From: Pirellulaceae bacterium
GTDB lineage: Bacteria > Planctomycetota > Planctomycetia > Pirellulales > Pirellulaceae
Length of the DNA stretch: 64,000 nt
Assembly: GCA_026004775.1 (NCBI GenBank)
Contig: BPJU01000021.1
Location: forward strand, 1-64,000
Direction of reading: 5' to 3'
The notes below the pieces were generated by a model, which searched no databases, was not told where the DNA came from, and was given only the letters and a program-made list of their open reading frames with translations. Shown here piece by piece: positions 20,990-58,120 of this stretch. A program made the translations under genes and the position numbers. Positions within the stretch are counted from its first letter, which is position 1; each line of letters opens with the position of its first letter.

Positions 20990-21208
20990 ATGTTGGTATT
21001 GTCGCGCAAGAAAAATGAGAGCATTGTTATCAACAACGACATCACGATCGTCGTTGTCGAGATCCGAGGCGACAAGGTGCGCCTTGGAGTCGAAGCTCCC
21101 AAAGAGGTGCCGGTGCACCGGCGAGAGGTTTACGAGGCGATCAAGCGCAGCGAAGCGCAGCAGCAAAACCAGCCGCAATCCACCTCCGAGAACAACCCAG
21201 CGTCGTAA
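20990..21208 (+). CDS. csrA: carbon storage regulator CsrA
   Basis: 72 residues. [20 protein letters not shown], then [29 protein letters not shown] is a complete CsrA beta-swap dimer with the RNA-binding Arg in HRREV. The last 20 residues are a Gln/Asn-rich tail without structure. CsrA binds GGA-containing leader hairpins to control translation. It stands alone, followed 49 bp later by an intrinsic terminator. Confidence 0.97.
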
Positions 21209-51324: not shown

Positions 51325-53178
51325 TCACCGCATTGGTTGCCGCACCGCCTCGAGAAAACGGCTGATCCAGCGAGTCTGCGTCGCTGCCTCTTCGCGCCGT
51401 CCTTCCGCTGCGAGGAGCTCAGCCAGCAATTGCCGGGCGGCAACGGCGGTGGGGTCACGGTCGATAGTAGCTCGAAGCGCCCGGATCGCATCCGATACGT
51501 GACCCATGCCCTGTGCTGCGCGGGCTTCAAAAAACCAAGCCTCCGGCGATTCGGGATAGTGCTCGCGCCAGCGGCGTGCCGTTTGGAGGGCTCGAGCCGC
51601 GTCGTTTTGTGTCAAATAGAGTGTGGTCAAAAATCGGTACACGTCCTCCGAAGCCGTTCCCGCTTCCAGAAGAGTACGCCAGGTGGCCTCGGCTTCCGGC
51701 ATCCGACCTGCCACGGCGCAGGCCATTCCCAGGTAAAAGCTGAGCAGCTCGTCTTGTGGCCACCGGTCGCGGAGCGGTTCCAGCAGGCCGATAGCTTGTT
51801 TGGCGCGCTCCGAGCCTTCCGCAATGGAGAGTTGTGCCTGCCAGATGCCCCGTCCTCGCTCGAGCAAATGCGGCTCGATCTGGAGCGCTTCCTCGCGGAA
51901 AAACCGATGTCCCTCGCCGGCCGCCGCTGCACCCGCGCCTTCTTGTGGCCGTCTTAAGATTCGATGGTCGGTCAACGCCGTGTGGGGCACAGCCGGGACG
52001 GGCAAACGCGGCATGTGGCAATGGATGCACCAACCCTGGGCGGGTGCCGCTTGTCGCTCAACCAACGGTACGCGGCACGCTTGCTCGTCGTGGCACTCGA
52101 AACACCGTTGCTGGTAATGGGCCGGCCTTGCTTCGACCGGCAGCCGCCGGTGTGGGTCGTGACAACTGATGCAACCGAGGCGGCCGCCGCTGGCCGTGTA
52201 GCAACGGCTCGACATTAACTGCAGCACGGTCGATTCGACCGCTTCCGTTGCCGTCGACGGCTGTTCAGGAACCACCAAGGTGTGTTGTTCCAGCCGATCT
52301 CCAGGCTTCCAAGCAAAACGCGTCTGTCCCGGATGGGGGATCCACTGGGCGGCACGCAGGTGACACTGCCAGCAAACTGCGTCACGCCGATCAGGCTCCA
52401 ACCGCGCGATGGAGATAAGAGAATCATCTTCCAGCCCCTCTTTTCGCCGCCGCACATGCTCTCCAGCCGGCCCATGGCATCGCTCACAGCCGATAGCCAT
52501 CTCAACAAAGGGCGAATCCGAAAAACGTTGCTCATCCAGCGATGTGACACTTATCCGGCCGGCATGGCAATAGAGGCAGTCGGTGCTGATACGCCGCGAA
52601 AAGCGCTGGTGTTGTCCGGGTGGATAACCGGGCGAAAGATCCCACGTAGCCCGCTGCGTGTACCAGGAAATGGGAGATTGATAGAGACGTCCTTCCCGCC
52701 GAAACAGATACCCGCGTCCCCGCTGGCCCGAGCCCACGGCAAACTCTATCACTACCGACTCGTCGAACAACTTTTCGCCGCTGCGATCCACCATGTACTC
52801 GCGATGCACCACTTTGTCCCCATCGCGGGTAACCTCGTACGCCCGTCCATCGCTGGTCTGGAAACGAGCGTGTTGATAGTTTTCGATCGGGTGTGCTTTC
52901 TCGATCAATGCCAGGGAACGCCCCATTCCGTGCGTGGAAAAATAGTCCTCGTAGATCGAGTCATGGCACTCGCGGCACGCATCACTTCCGGCATAATCGC
53001 CGGCGGGCAGCAGCAGCGGTCTTTGCGCCAACGAGTCCGATTTGCGTAAGACTGGGTGGTCAAGGGAAGTCTTGCGGGTTGCAGGATTCGCGGAGTACCA
53101 GACCAATAGGGCGCCAAGCACCCACAGCGCGGCCAAACCGATTACCGCGCCCCAAACTCTGCTTTCCGTTTGTCGCAT
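51325..53178 (-). CDS. seven-haem c-type cytochrome with TPR tail
   Basis: 617 residues. N-terminal membrane anchor VWGAVIGLAALWVLGALLVW. Seven CxxCH motifs: CRECH, CLYCH, CERCH, CWQCH, CISCH, CFECH and CIHCH. The last 170 residues form TPR-like helices (LSFYLGMACAVAGRMPEAEA, YPESPEAWFFEARAAQG). It probably passes electrons or acts on an oxidised substrate outside the membrane; TPRs suggest protein partners. ATG at 53178. Resembles planctomycete cytochrome c3-type/TPR fusions. Confidence 0.9.
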   Translation of the reverse strand: MRQTESRVWGAVIGLAALWVLGALLVWYSANPATRKTSLDHPVLRKSDSLAQRPLLLPAGDYAGSDACRECHDSIYEDYFSTHGMGRSLALIEKAHPIENYQHARFQTSDGRAYEVTRDGDKVVHREYMVDRSGEKLFDESVVIEFAVGSGQRGRGYLFRREGRLYQSPISWYTQRATWDLSPGYPPGQHQRFSRRISTDCLYCHAGRISVTSLDEQRFSDSPFVEMAIGCERCHGPAGEHVRRRKEGLEDDSLISIARLEPDRRDAVCWQCHLRAAQWIPHPGQTRFAWKPGDRLEQHTLVVPEQPSTATEAVESTVLQLMSSRCYTASGGRLGCISCHDPHRRLPVEARPAHYQQRCFECHDEQACRVPLVERQAAPAQGWCIHCHMPRLPVPAVPHTALTDHRILRRPQEGAGAAAAGEGHRFFREEALQIEPHLLERGRGIWQAQLSIAEGSERAKQAIGLLEPLRDRWPQDELLSFYLGMACAVAGRMPEAEATWRTLLEAGTASEDVYRFLTTLYLTQNDAARALQTARRWREHYPESPEAWFFEARAAQGMGHVSDAIRALRATIDRDPTAVAARQLLAELLAAEGRREEAATQTRWISRFLEAVRQPMR

Positions 53179-54379: not shown

Positions 54380-55336
54380 ATGACATCGAGCAGTCGCTCC
54401 GGAACGCACGAAGCCGTATTGCCCAGCGCTCGGGACGAAGCGCTGTATCGGCGTTGGTGCGAGGTTATCTGCCTCTTGATCTGCCTGTATATCGCTGTGG
54501 TCATCGGGGTTCTCGCCGTGGTGCTTGGCCAGCGTGCCGTCTTGAGAGCCAAGAGTTCTCACCTAACCGCGCTGGCGGTTTTCGAACGAGAGGCACACAG
54601 CCCGCATTCAGGCCCTGGAAGCGGAACCGGTTCCGAGTTGGATTCGTCTGCCACGCTGTCGTCGGAGTCAACGGCCCGAGCAGTATTACCGGAGGTCGGC
54701 CGGCCGGCAGGAACCGCAACCACGGTGCGTATGGGTGGCGCTGTCGCTCGGGCAACTCCCGGAATTTCCGGGTTGGATCAGGCAGCGAGAACCCGGGTCG
54801 GTTTCGCGGAGGCGCCAGAGTTCGCGCTGCGCGACTTGAAGCCGACTTTAAGCCCTGTGGTACTGGCAGCATTGGAAAAGTCCGAGCAGCTATCAAAGCA
54901 ACTTGAGACTCAATTGGCCGCTCCACGGCTGGATCCGCGAACGGCGCTTGAGGCACTGATGCGGGAACACGCCAAGCTCGCTGCGGTACGGGAACCGGAT
55001 ATCGAGCGGAAGGTGTGGATACCGGCTATTGCCGACGAAGCCCGCCGTCGCGGCAAGATCCCTTCCATTCGCGAGGACATACGCGCACATGCCGATTTCG
55101 TCTACGCCCAGATGTCCCAAGCCCGGGGGACGCGCGTGGCTTGGTACTGGAAGCGCCGCATCCTGGAAGGGGAGGATCGATGGGAAGGGGAGTTTTTGCG
55201 GCGCTATGCGGCGACGGGTGATGAATTCACCTCGCGCTATTTGGTATTGAGAAAACTGCCGACGCCGCGCTTGCCTGCCGAACCCAGTATGGCTTCCGAT
55301 CCGCTGCTTGCTCGAGCCGATCCCGCGGGCCCCTAA
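54380..55336 (+). CDS. membrane-anchored protein of unknown function
   Basis: 318 residues. One membrane helix (EVICLLICLYIAVVIGVLAV, residues about 28-48), a Ser/Gly/Ala-rich linker to about residue 140, and a charged helical C-terminus (LKPTLSPVVLAALEKSEQLS, VAWYWKRRILEGEDRWEGEF). No family recognised. ATG at 54380. It may be a surface or sensory protein; function is not inferred. Confidence 0.6.
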   Translation: MTSSSRSGTHEAVLPSARDEALYRRWCEVICLLICLYIAVVIGVLAVVLGQRAVLRAKSSHLTALAVFEREAHSPHSGPGSGTGSELDSSATLSSESTARAVLPEVGRPAGTATTVRMGGAVARATPGISGLDQAARTRVGFAEAPEFALRDLKPTLSPVVLAALEKSEQLSKQLETQLAAPRLDPRTALEALMREHAKLAAVREPDIERKVWIPAIADEARRRGKIPSIREDIRAHADFVYAQMSQARGTRVAWYWKRRILEGEDRWEGEFLRRYAATGDEFTSRYLVLRKLPTPRLPAEPSMASDPLLARADPAGP

Positions 55337-55428
55337 GTTGCCCGCCACGGTCTTGCGACCAACCGACTACTGCTGCGGGTTAGCTGCTGATCCAAATCCA
55401 GCTACGCGTACCGGGCGGCTTACTCTTC

Positions 55429-55532
55429 CACTGAGTCTCAACGGTGCTCGTCCGGTTACGGCGAACAGCAGGCGATGGGTGCCGAGCAGTGTGCGGAGTC
55501 ACTGAATCTCGACAGTGCTCGTCCAGTGACGG
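55429..55532. repeat. 33-bp imperfect direct repeat pair
   Basis: Units 55429-55461 and 55500-55532 share CACTGA-TCTC-AC-GTGCTCGTCC and end in ACGG, 71 bp apart. Located just upstream of the predicted RNA promoter; could be regulator sites. Confidence 0.6.
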
Positions 55533-55582
55533 TGGAGTGATCGCTTCTCGCATATTGGAAGACGTACGCGAAAAAATTGGCC

Positions 55583-55611
55583 TTGACGATTTCGACCGTA
55601 AGCCCTATCTT
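55583..55611 (+). promoter_or_regulatory. strong sigma70-like promoter
   Basis: TTGACG (55583-55588), 17-bp spacer, TATCTT (55606-55611). The best promoter match seen in the window. No gene follows it; it drives the predicted structured RNA. Confidence 0.6.
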
Positions 55612-55617
55612 GCCGCC

Positions 55618-55968
55618 TCATCAACGCGGGCCGTATCAGCGGACGTGCGGGTAACGAGCCCCGGAGGAGGCCGCATAGGAGGGCGGCCAGGAGATCGGTC
55701 CCTCGGTTACCCGACGTGGCAGAACGGGCGGCAAGGAGGCCGTCCGTTCGGTCCCCAGCGGAATCGGAAACGCCCCTTGGTGTCAGCGAAGGGTTGTCCT
55801 GAACAACGCAGCGCAGTAACCGGAAAGATCGGCCAGCGGTGTTTGTTCGGAGAGGATCACCCGGCGACAGCGTAAGCGACAGAATCGAAAAACAATACTC
55901 CAATCGCTCCCGGAACCGTGCGGAGTCCTTTGCCCCCCTGGGACCCGTTGCCTCCGGGGGCTTTTTTT
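55618..55968 (+). ncRNA. predicted structured noncoding RNA, about 350 nt
   Basis: Lies between a promoter match and an intrinsic terminator. It contains long pairings: CGGGTAAC..GTTACCCG enclosing GGCCGC..GCGGCC, then ACGGGCGGC-AAGGAG-GCCGTCCGT, then GTTGT-CCTGA-ACAAC. The overlapping ORF (55444-55875) has no ribosome site near its start and no homology. I tested by eye for RNase P, tmRNA and SRP signatures; none fitted. RNA class unknown. Expression is not shown. Confidence 0.5.
55932..55968 (+). terminator. intrinsic terminator
   Basis: GCCCCC pairs with GGGGGC across a loop of about 17 nt, then seven T. It is about 600 bp downstream of the nearest gene, hence assigned to the predicted RNA. 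Confidence 0.75.
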
Positions 55969-56178
55969 ATGGCGTGCGCCTCGCTTTTAAGGGGTAAGCT
56001 TCCCGGACACTTCGATCTGCTCCGATTGGCCTCCCACCCGTAGCGACGGCCATCGATTCGGGCCAGAATTTCTTTGTTAGCTGATCCGAGGGACGGCCGG
56101 CCGTCGGAGCGACGACCAGGATTTACGAACCGGCTCTTTGTAAGTTCGTATTTGCGAGCCTTTCTCGCAAGAATCGAA

Positions 56179-56550
56179 ATGGCAGGGGCCGTTACTATGA
56201 GCATTGATAACTCGGTTTCGCCGCAACCGCACGTGTCAGGGAGGGACGTCCGCCAGTTGATCCGCCGTGTCGGCACTGTTGTGCTGATTGTCGGGGCAGT
56301 CGTGCTGAGCTATGGTGCCGTGGGCTATTGGATCATTCCAAGTCTGCCGCCTAACGGTGGAGCATACGGGCGCCTTCCGTCCGTTTATGTGATGGGGGTC
56401 GGAATGGTGGGAGCTTTGCTGGGGTTAGTGCTCCGCGGTATGTGGGGGCGCGCCCCAGTAAAGTCCGGCTCGTCGGTGTCACCCCTGATAGGAATTGCCC
56501 TGCTGTTGGCAATTCTGGTGATTTTTTTCTTCGTCGTTTCCAGGTTGTAG
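56179..56550 (+). CDS. small membrane protein, unknown
   Basis: 123 residues with three hydrophobic helices (VGTVVLIVGAVVLSYGAVGY, VYVMGVGMVGALLGLVL, LIGIALLLAILVIFFFVV). ATG at 56179 or 56197. No family identified. It might insert in the inner membrane as a small accessory protein. Confidence 0.5.
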   Translation: MAGAVTMSIDNSVSPQPHVSGRDVRQLIRRVGTVVLIVGAVVLSYGAVGYWIIPSLPPNGGAYGRLPSVYVMGVGMVGALLGLVLRGMWGRAPVKSGSSVSPLIGIALLLAILVIFFFVVSRL

Positions 56551-56617
56551 GTGATTACGGGCAGTATGGCAGTTGCGAGCGCCGACGGTGAAGGCTGCCG
56601 GCGGAATGCAGGAAGTT

Positions 56618-56845
56618 TCAGCGCGCCAGCAACCAGCCAGCCAACCAAAACATCGCGAGCAGCCCCAGCACCGTCAGCAAGCAACCGGTGGGGCCAGAAC
56701 TTCGAGCTGGCTGCACCGATCGACGGCCGCGATCAAAACCTACCCCGTACGCCTTGCGAGAGCCGGTTCGCTTGCCCGACCGGTAGCCTAGCGAGTAAAG
56801 CCAGATTCCGAACACGACAATCAGAATAAGCCCAATGAGCTCCAT
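56618..56845 (-). CDS. small two-helix membrane protein
   Basis: 75 residues. MELIGLILIVVFGIWLYSLG, a basic loop (GYRSGKRTGSRKAYGVGFDR) and CLLTVLGLLAMFWLAGWLLA. ATG at 56845, the frame open to 56875. Convergent with the preceding membrane gene. Function unknown; such small proteins are easily missed. Confidence 0.5.
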   Translation of the reverse strand: MELIGLILIVVFGIWLYSLGYRSGKRTGSRKAYGVGFDRGRRSVQPARSSGPTGCLLTVLGLLAMFWLAGWLLAR

Positions 56846-57054
56846 AGTCTTGCCTCGACGCGAGTCGGCAGGCACAGGTACCGCCGGTGGGTGCCCGTGC
56901 GCCGTGCTTGTGTTCTTCCCCTACTAGTTGGTACGCTCGTCACTGGCGAGATATGACACGTACAGCGCGCCCTGCCGGAATCGAACCGCTGCGAGCAAGG
57001 AGTTGCCGAGCCTGGGATTCCGGGGTGGGTACGAAAAAAACCGGGGCGGCGTAC

Positions 57055-57085
57055 TTGTCAAATATGTACTTATTATGCATATTTG
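57055..57085 (+). promoter_or_regulatory. promoter and inverted-repeat operator before the Rrf2 gene
   Basis: TTGTCA (57055-57060), 17-bp spacer, CATATT (57078-57083). Inverted repeat CAAATATG (57059-57066)/CATATTTG (57078-57085) with an 11-bp spacer covers the -35 edge and -10. This AT-rich dyad resembles NsrR-type sites; self-repression is likely. Confidence 0.55.
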
Positions 57086-57106
57086 GGCTCTGGTGGGAGT
57101 CGCGTC

Positions 57107-57574
57107 ATGCGTCTTGCGCTCCATACCGACTATGCGCTTCGCACGTTGATGTACCTGGCGGTCGTGGGGCGGCAGGCCACGGCACGCGAGGTGGCCGAAT
57201 TTTACGGGATATCGGCCGACCACGTCGCCAAAGTCGTCAACCAACTGGCTCGCCGAGGCTACGTGCAGAGCGTGCGCGGGGCTGGAGGCGGAATTCGCTT
57301 GAGCCGAGCGCCCGAGGCGATCTCGGTCGGCGAAGTGATCGAAGCGATGGAAGGCCCGCTGCACCTGCTGGACTGCGTAGGGTCGGACGGCGTATGCATC
57401 ATCGAGTCCTACTGCAAGTTGAGGCAGGTGTTGCGGGAAGCCGAACGGATACAGGCGGACTATTTGCGCAGCGTCAAGCTGAGCGACGTGTTGCCTGGCG
57501 TTCGGCAACTGGAACGCACCCGTAGCGACTCCCCCAGGGCGGCTCCACGGGGGCGCCGCCCCGGTAAGGCGTAA
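57107..57574 (+). CDS. nsrR: Rrf2-family regulator, NsrR type
   Basis: 155 residues. Winged helix MRLALHTDYALRTLMYLAVV, VAEFYGISADHVAKVVNQLA, SVRGAGGGIRLSR; then the cluster-binding Cys triad in LLDCVGSDGVCIIESYCKL, spaced as in NsrR. An Fe-S cluster there would sense nitric oxide. ATG at 57107 follows an operator. The next gene, 24 bp later, encodes a haem protein, which is a plausible target. IscR is less likely because the Cys spacing differs. Confidence 0.85.
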   Translation: MRLALHTDYALRTLMYLAVVGRQATAREVAEFYGISADHVAKVVNQLARRGYVQSVRGAGGGIRLSRAPEAISVGEVIEAMEGPLHLLDCVGSDGVCIIESYCKLRQVLREAERIQADYLRSVKLSDVLPGVRQLERTRSDSPRAAPRGRRPGKA

Positions 57575-57598: not shown

Positions 57599-58120
57599 GT
57601 GAGAAGTGCTATGGTGAAGGGAGTGGTGGTGTCGCTGGTTCTGGTCGGCGCCGCGCCTCGGTTCTTGCCGGCCGAGCCCAAGGAAGAGGATGCCGCAGTG
57701 GAACGGACTCGACGGACGGTTCGCATGTTGGACGACGTCTATAAAGCGGCTGTCGTGTTGATCACTGACAAGTACGTGCATGACGAGGACGACTTCCCGG
57801 CCGGCAGCGCCGCCATCGCCCTGTTCGATGCCGTTCGCAAGAAAGGCTGGCACGACGTGCGGCTGTTGGATGTCACGGGCGAACCGTACGACGCCAAAAA
57901 CCGGCCTCGCGATGAGTTCGAAAAGAAGGCTGCCGAACAATTGCGCAAGGGGAGGGACTACGTCGAGTCAATAGAATCGACGCCCGATGGGCGCTTTCTC
58001 CGGGCTGCCACGGCCATTCCCGTGGTGATGCCGAAGTGCACGATGTGCCACCCGCACTACAAGGACGTGCCGGCCGGCCGAGCCGTGGGGATGCTCAGTT
58101 ACCGTTTGCGTATCGAATAA
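57599..58120 (+). CDS. exported DUF3365 (Tll0287-like) haem protein
   Basis: 173 residues. Signal segment MVKGVVVSLVLVGAAPRFLP, then a helical domain with a single CTMCH motif (MPKCTMCHPHYKDVPAGRAV), the family's c-type haem site. It may sense or bind small gases or redox change. GTG at 57599 follows nsrR by 24 bp, so the two are probably one operon. Confidence 0.85.
   Translation: MRSAMVKGVVVSLVLVGAAPRFLPAEPKEEDAAVERTRRTVRMLDDVYKAAVVLITDKYVHDEDDFPAGSAAIALFDAVRKKGWHDVRLLDVTGEPYDAKNRPRDEFEKKAAEQLRKGRDYVESIESTPDGRFLRAATAIPVVMPKCTMCHPHYKDVPAGRAVGMLSYRLRIE

Follow-up and report, generated by a model that had tools for sequence, protein, structure and literature searches.

A predicted CsrA-binding small RNA with a conserved C-rich 3' hairpin in Planctomycetia

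The window analysed here is a stretch of 64,000 nucleotides from a Pirellulaceae bacterium (contig BPJU01000021.1), whose genome comprises 6.1 Mb in 30 contigs. A preliminary description of the window proposed that positions 55583-55968 hold an unassigned structured RNA, about 350 nt long, together with its promoter and terminator. Is this interval a gene, and what could its product do? Comparison with related genomes upheld the first proposal. The interval is an autonomous non-coding RNA gene, and both of its ends are backed by comparative data. Its product is probably a CsrA-binding small RNA of the Planctomycetia, more likely than not a decoy, that also carries a separate conserved C-rich 3' hairpin. 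This reading was drawn from sequence comparison.

The gene and its conserved ends

The promoter that had been described, TTGACG-17-TATCTT, is present at 55583-55611 (+). It consists of a -35 box, TTGACG (55583-55588), a 17-nt spacer, and a -10 box, TATCTT (55606-55611). An A-run (AAAAAA) lies directly upstream, and there is a GC-rich discriminator, GCCGCCTCA. The predicted non-coding transcript (55615-55968, +) would be about 350 nt long and would begin at 55615, with the start placed 4-9 nt after the -10 box. In a pattern scan, this promoter was the sole sigma-70-like site in 54600-57000, where 0.5 was expected. One site against 0.5 is weak alone; the case is strong because 145 of 190 non-redundant loci carry a like promoter at the matching relative place. 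These 190 loci form the main comparison set, and they were filtered for redundancy because the discovery and test sets used below came partly from the same genomes or close relatives. In these 145 loci the upstream promoter has the form TTGAC-N17/18-TAnnnT, whereas the antisense strand gave 1 such site and the downstream sequence none. The most sense-biased six-mers were TTGACC and CTTGAC, with TATTCT among those next, and the aligned consensus is AAAA..CTTGACC-N17-TATTCT-CCCGCCTCA. The GC-rich discriminator may recall growth-rate-controlled promoters. A GacA/UvrY box (TGTAAG-N6-CTTACA) was found upstream in 0 of the 190 loci. The length from promoter to terminator has a median of 330 nt (interquartile range 284-365, 145 loci).

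The nearest upstream ORF ends at 55336, that is, 247 bp before the promoter and not 280 bp as first stated. The interval itself does not appear to be translated. Neither the 143-residue ORF that overlaps it nor a 134-residue ORF has a Pfam match, and relatives show no conservation of this DNA. The number of ORFs that overlap the RNA interval was disregarded, as spurious long ORFs occur everywhere in GC-rich DNA. Genes near the RNA include a multihaem cytochrome/TPR protein (51325-53178, -), an Rrf2-family regulator (57083-57574, +), and a Tll0287-like haem domain protein (57599-58120, +). These neighbours are not common to the other loci.

The other end of the RNA is its most recognizable part. 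The conserved 3' domain (55900-55971, +) has a CCAATCG leader, a hairpin, P1 (55906-55961), and a T7 tail (55962-55968), so the GC stem and T7 terminator of the preliminary description was found as stated. An inner hairpin, P2, lies around UCCUUUG-CCCCCC, with the C6 at 55933-55938. The terminator hairpin is about 70 nt and its C6 loop is invariant. It was overlooked by the terminator scan of the window because the loop is long. When the interval was searched with blastn, a match was found in 52 of 60 relatives, one in each save one exception. These matches were nearly always limited to the last 73 nt, with 74-88% identity. The aligned 3' core, CCAATCGCTCCCGGAA-N7-GTCCTTTGCCCCCCTGGGAC-N8-TTCCGGGAGCTTTTTTT, has 34 invariant columns in 30 genomes, and MAFFT over the full RNA gave no alignment beyond the 3' domain. 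In 96 sequences, the two helices of this domain pair in 97% of cells, and 9 pairs are changed on both sides. On every measure of this covariation, all 500 shuffles fell short of the real alignment, and slid versions scored far lower.

A covariance model of the element (R1) identified it in 147 of 248 genomes of the class, mostly once per genome. The positive genomes include almost every member of the window's order and the majority of family f22. Pirellulales, Planctomycetaceae, Thermogutta, Schlesneria, Fuerstiella, Bythopirellula, and Botrimarina are among the carriers, and going by these names the class would be Planctomycetia. R1 matches elsewhere in the phylum, outside the class, were weak and mostly partial, and they were left out of the count. 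The core is complete in a locus labelled Candidatus Kuenenia (L154), where it sits at the end of a contig that was probably mis-binned. A locus labelled Zixiibacteriota (L183) matches the pattern without a terminator, probably by chance.

Hairpins of the CsrA type in the middle region

The middle of the RNA is poorly conserved. Hairpins with GGA in the loop recur there in variable sequence. Alignments of the 3' domain and its flanks first revealed such hairpins, for example GGC-AAGGAT-GCC and CTGAC-AAGGAT-GTCAG. The CsrA/RsmE binding site is an ANGGAN hexaloop on a short hairpin, and SELEX has given the consensus RUACARGGAUGU (PMC7652899). Over the 400 nt that precede the core in 30 loci (the discovery set), CANGGANG occurs 43 times in sense, compared with 2 times in antisense, 5 downstream, and 4.1 in shuffles. 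A test set of 80 further loci was fetched after the idea of the motif had been formed. In this set, CANGGANG was found 37 times in the window's order (1 antisense; 3.2 in dinucleotide shuffles) and 44 times in another order of the class, f22 (2 antisense; 4.0 in shuffles). There was no enrichment in f23, with 3 in sense and 3 in antisense.

The 190 non-redundant loci gave the same motif. Among all 4096 patterns of the shape ab.cde.f, CANGGANG ranked first, being present in 150 of the 190 loci against 9 antisense, and 19 and 14 downstream; the runner-up pattern reached only 66 loci. ANGGAN loops closed by C-G number 215, compared with 9 in antisense. The next stem pairs outward are Watson-Crick in 87% and 60% of cases, against 55% and 34% for shuffled partners. 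This pairing exceeds all 1000 partner shuffles and several pair types are seen. A tally of Watson-Crick hairpins that was blind to the motif found AAGGAT, ATGGAT, ACGGAT, and ACGGAA to be the commonest hexaloops and NGGA the commonest tetraloops. Canonical sites number 0 in 40 loci, 1 in 94, 2 in 47, and 3 in 9. Bythopirellula polymerisocia Pla144 (L182), a cultured member, has three canonical hairpins in a predicted RNA of roughly 400 nt.

The window's copy possesses one canonical and one degenerate site. The canonical site is a textbook candidate CsrA-binding hairpin (55722-55749, +), GAACGGGCGGC-AAGGAG-GCCGTCCGTTC, with an ANGGAN hexaloop closed by C-G. At 11 bp, the stem exceeds that of most SELEX hairpins, which have at most 4 pairs (PMC7652899). 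The degenerate CsrA-type hairpin (55669-55688, +) is GGCCGC-AUAGGAGG-GCGGCC, in which GGA lies in an 8-nt loop and is not part of ANGGA. The stems reported earlier, CGGGTAAC/GTTACCCG enclosing GGCCGC/GCGGCC, are seen in the minimum free energy fold; the GGCCGC/GCGGCC stem itself is not conserved. The probability that GGA is unpaired is 0.99 in the canonical hairpin and 0.84 in the degenerate one. There are 14 GGA in the window's RNA, against 8.0 expected, and most are paired. Across RNAs of at least 200 nt, there are 1.23 unpaired ANGGA per RNA compared with 0.10 in shuffles. The folding energy of the window's RNA is unremarkable on its own (z -0.92), and the mean over 145 loci is -125.6 kcal/mol compared with -106.2 kcal/mol for dinucleotide shuffles. 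The energy of a single fold is uninformative, and thus the evidence for structure is comparative.

Some loci have the 3' core without these hairpins. In about 19 of 145 loci the RNA is short, 105-200 nt, and has no CsrA-type sites. The short forms of the f22 type (L106, L118, L120, L125, L241, L253, and similar; 105-190 nt) have the usual promoter and core and no CANGGANG hairpin. In f23, loci L129, L131, L134, and L136 have a variant core and a different promoter, TTGACA-17-TATGAT/TAAGAT, about 300 nt upstream of the core. The f23 loci share a middle motif, ..ACATGTCCTTGGTT..CGCCAAG.., and have no CsrA-type sites; it would seem that this lineage has exchanged its middle module for another. 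Because the short RNAs and f23 keep the core without CsrA sites, the 3' domain has a separate role that is independent of CsrA.

CsrA, proposed function, and known systems

The presumed partner of the RNA is encoded in the same window. A csrA gene (20990-21145, +) matches PF02599 (E 1.7e-25) and keeps L4 and R44 in an alignment with RsmE 2jpp and further CsrA chains. Residues around these two positions make the contacts to RNA (PMC7652899). There are seven copies of csrA in the source genome and 3-14 per genome among its relatives, and these paralogue numbers are unusually high. The gene was found in 60 of 60 relatives and in 248 of 248 genomes of the class, with 2-17 copies each and often 5-15. 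The source genome also encodes FliW, a protein antagonist of CsrA that has been suggested as a mechanism for Planctomycetes (PMC4682653). The CsrA-FliW system would resemble the RNA in controlling CsrA; unlike it, FliW is a protein.

CsrA-type hexaloops together with csrA in all genomes of the class make a CsrA-binding RNA the best reading of the locus, and it is quite likely that CsrA binds the RNA. The RNA (55615-55968) would be a single-copy, trans-acting molecule with a sigma-70 promoter and a terminator of its own. The ANGGAN hexaloop hairpins, closed by C-G, in its 5' and middle part would serve as CsrA sites. Made in quantity, it would occupy CsrA dimers and so free the mRNA leaders that CsrA would otherwise cover, a decoy mode like that of CsrB and RsmZ. 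Sequestration is the commonest known consequence for CsrA-binding RNAs. That it is the main effect here is favoured by a little. The invariant C-rich 3' hairpin, which resembles an anti-Shine-Dalgarno sequence, would form a second module that probably serves in base pairing or in stability; for the C6 loop in particular, either role is a guess.

Known CsrA-binding RNAs provide the closest comparison. CsrB/CsrC and RsmX/Y/Z of Gammaproteobacteria (RF00018 and others) are likewise autonomous, have GGA in the loops of CANGGANG-type hairpins, and have their own terminator and no conserved neighbours. The RNA described here differs from CsrB/RsmZ in occurring in Planctomycetia, in having no Rfam match and no GacA/UvrY box, and in being accompanied by FliW in the genome. 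It also has 1-3 canonical sites instead of many and an invariant 3' hairpin with a C6 loop. For comparison, E. coli CsrB carries 22 GGA (PMC7652899). CsrB-type RNAs are principally gammaproteobacterial (PMC13407953, PMC7652899). The covariance models for CsrB, CsrC, and RsmX/Y/Z gave no match, whether in the window (gathering score), in the region (E up to 10), or in 20 relatives (E up to 1). The RNA appears to work as CsrA-binding small RNAs do, yet it lacks two features of the CsrB family, the match to a sequence model and the GacA box.

Other known RNAs share some of its features. Dual small RNAs such as McaS of E. coli bind CsrA in addition to pairing with mRNAs. The RNA is McaS-like in layout, with few CsrA sites and a separate conserved, possibly base-pairing region (McaS appears in PMC7652899). 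The TwoAYGGAY motif, judged by its name, has hairpins with AYGGAY loops, and it was compared by description only. It is probably a trans-acting RNA and is found in the human gut, Gammaproteobacteria, and Clostridiales (Weinberg 2010, PMC2864571). Rhodopirellula-1, which has no Rfam accession, likewise occurs in Planctomycetes, as well as in Proteobacteria, and is probably cis-regulatory with doubtful status as an RNA (Weinberg 2010, PMC2864571). It was set apart by description only, and identity with the RNA described here is unlikely.

CsrA is a global regulator, and planctomycetes form a phylum whose cell biology is unusual. A conserved RNA with candidate CsrA sites provides a concrete candidate for CsrA control in Planctomycetia. 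It suggests that RNA decoys of CsrA reach beyond Gammaproteobacteria, by shared ancestry or by convergence. No CsrA-binding RNA in planctomycetes was found described in the open-licence literature, an absence that is no proof. The RNA could possibly represent the first class-wide family of CsrA-binding small RNAs outside Proteobacteria, combining a decoy with an anti-Shine-Dalgarno-like C-loop so as to titrate CsrA and pair with mRNAs, and this larger claim is tentative. Few uncatalogued RNA elements of the class are as conserved as the 3' hairpin, which could join Rfam.

Alternative explanations

Base pairing could instead be the main function of this small RNA. The C-rich loop of the 3' hairpin, UCCUYNGCCCCCCU, resembles the anti-Shine-Dalgarno sequence (UCCUUU/UCCUCC), and a guess would be that it pairs with mRNAs. 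In that case the loop would pair with G-rich Shine-Dalgarno regions of mRNAs, CsrA would merely bind to stabilize the RNA or to assist its pairing, and sequestration would be minor. No part of the RNA is better conserved than the 3' hairpin, which survives where CsrA sites are absent. There are also few CsrA sites per RNA compared with the 3-14 csrA genes per genome, and CsrA has been described as modulating pairs of small RNA and mRNA (PMC10729762). However, the ANGGAN hairpins are the strongest signal of the middle region and are repeated within the RNA in 56 of 190 loci, so pure base pairing does not explain them. This explanation is unlikely, with some weight left to it, and a CsrA-binding RNA remains the preferred reading.

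It is also conceivable that the GGA hairpins are ribosome-binding mimics (Shine-Dalgarno decoys) or sites for a protein other than CsrA. AAGGAU does look like a Shine-Dalgarno sequence. At loop position 2, however, C (77) or U (64) of the 215 sites breaks this complementarity, with C, U, and A about equally frequent. The mimic reading was rejected because this position is mostly not a purine. The CsrA consensus permits a variable N there, and the contacts made by CsrA are exactly those expected for an A-N-GGA-N loop with C-G closure (PMC7652899). Mimics or another protein's sites are highly unlikely, and the hairpins are better read as putative CsrA sites.

A cis-acting role for the 3' hairpin, as the terminator of a neighbouring gene or as its attenuator or riboswitch, has in its favour that this is a terminator hairpin with T7 and that attenuators contain terminators. 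Against it are the conserved promoter about 330 nt upstream of the hairpin and the single copy in most genomes. Moreover, no family of neighbouring ORFs is common to more than a handful of 30 loci, and the lack of a conserved neighbour gene argues for action in trans. A cis-acting element is very improbable.

A single-copy, class-wide RNA of about 330 nt with a strong promoter could also be a known housekeeping RNA in diverged form (RNase P, tmRNA, 6S, or SRP). For RNase P and tmRNA this is refuted, and as a whole it is scarcely credible, given that the genome has its RNase P (at 297.6 bits) and its tmRNA (at 182.3 bits) elsewhere, as it does a sub-threshold 6S candidate, and that Rfam gave no match at gathering score in the window interval and nothing meaningful in the region at E up to 10, with SRP covered by the window Rfam scan alone. 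The preliminary description had also set RNase P and tmRNA aside and left the RNA unassigned, and both points hold. The 6S candidate lies at G000:C3:65076-65290 (-) and scores 33.5 bits against a gathering threshold of 46.4. It appears that planctomycete 6S is poorly covered by the Rfam model.
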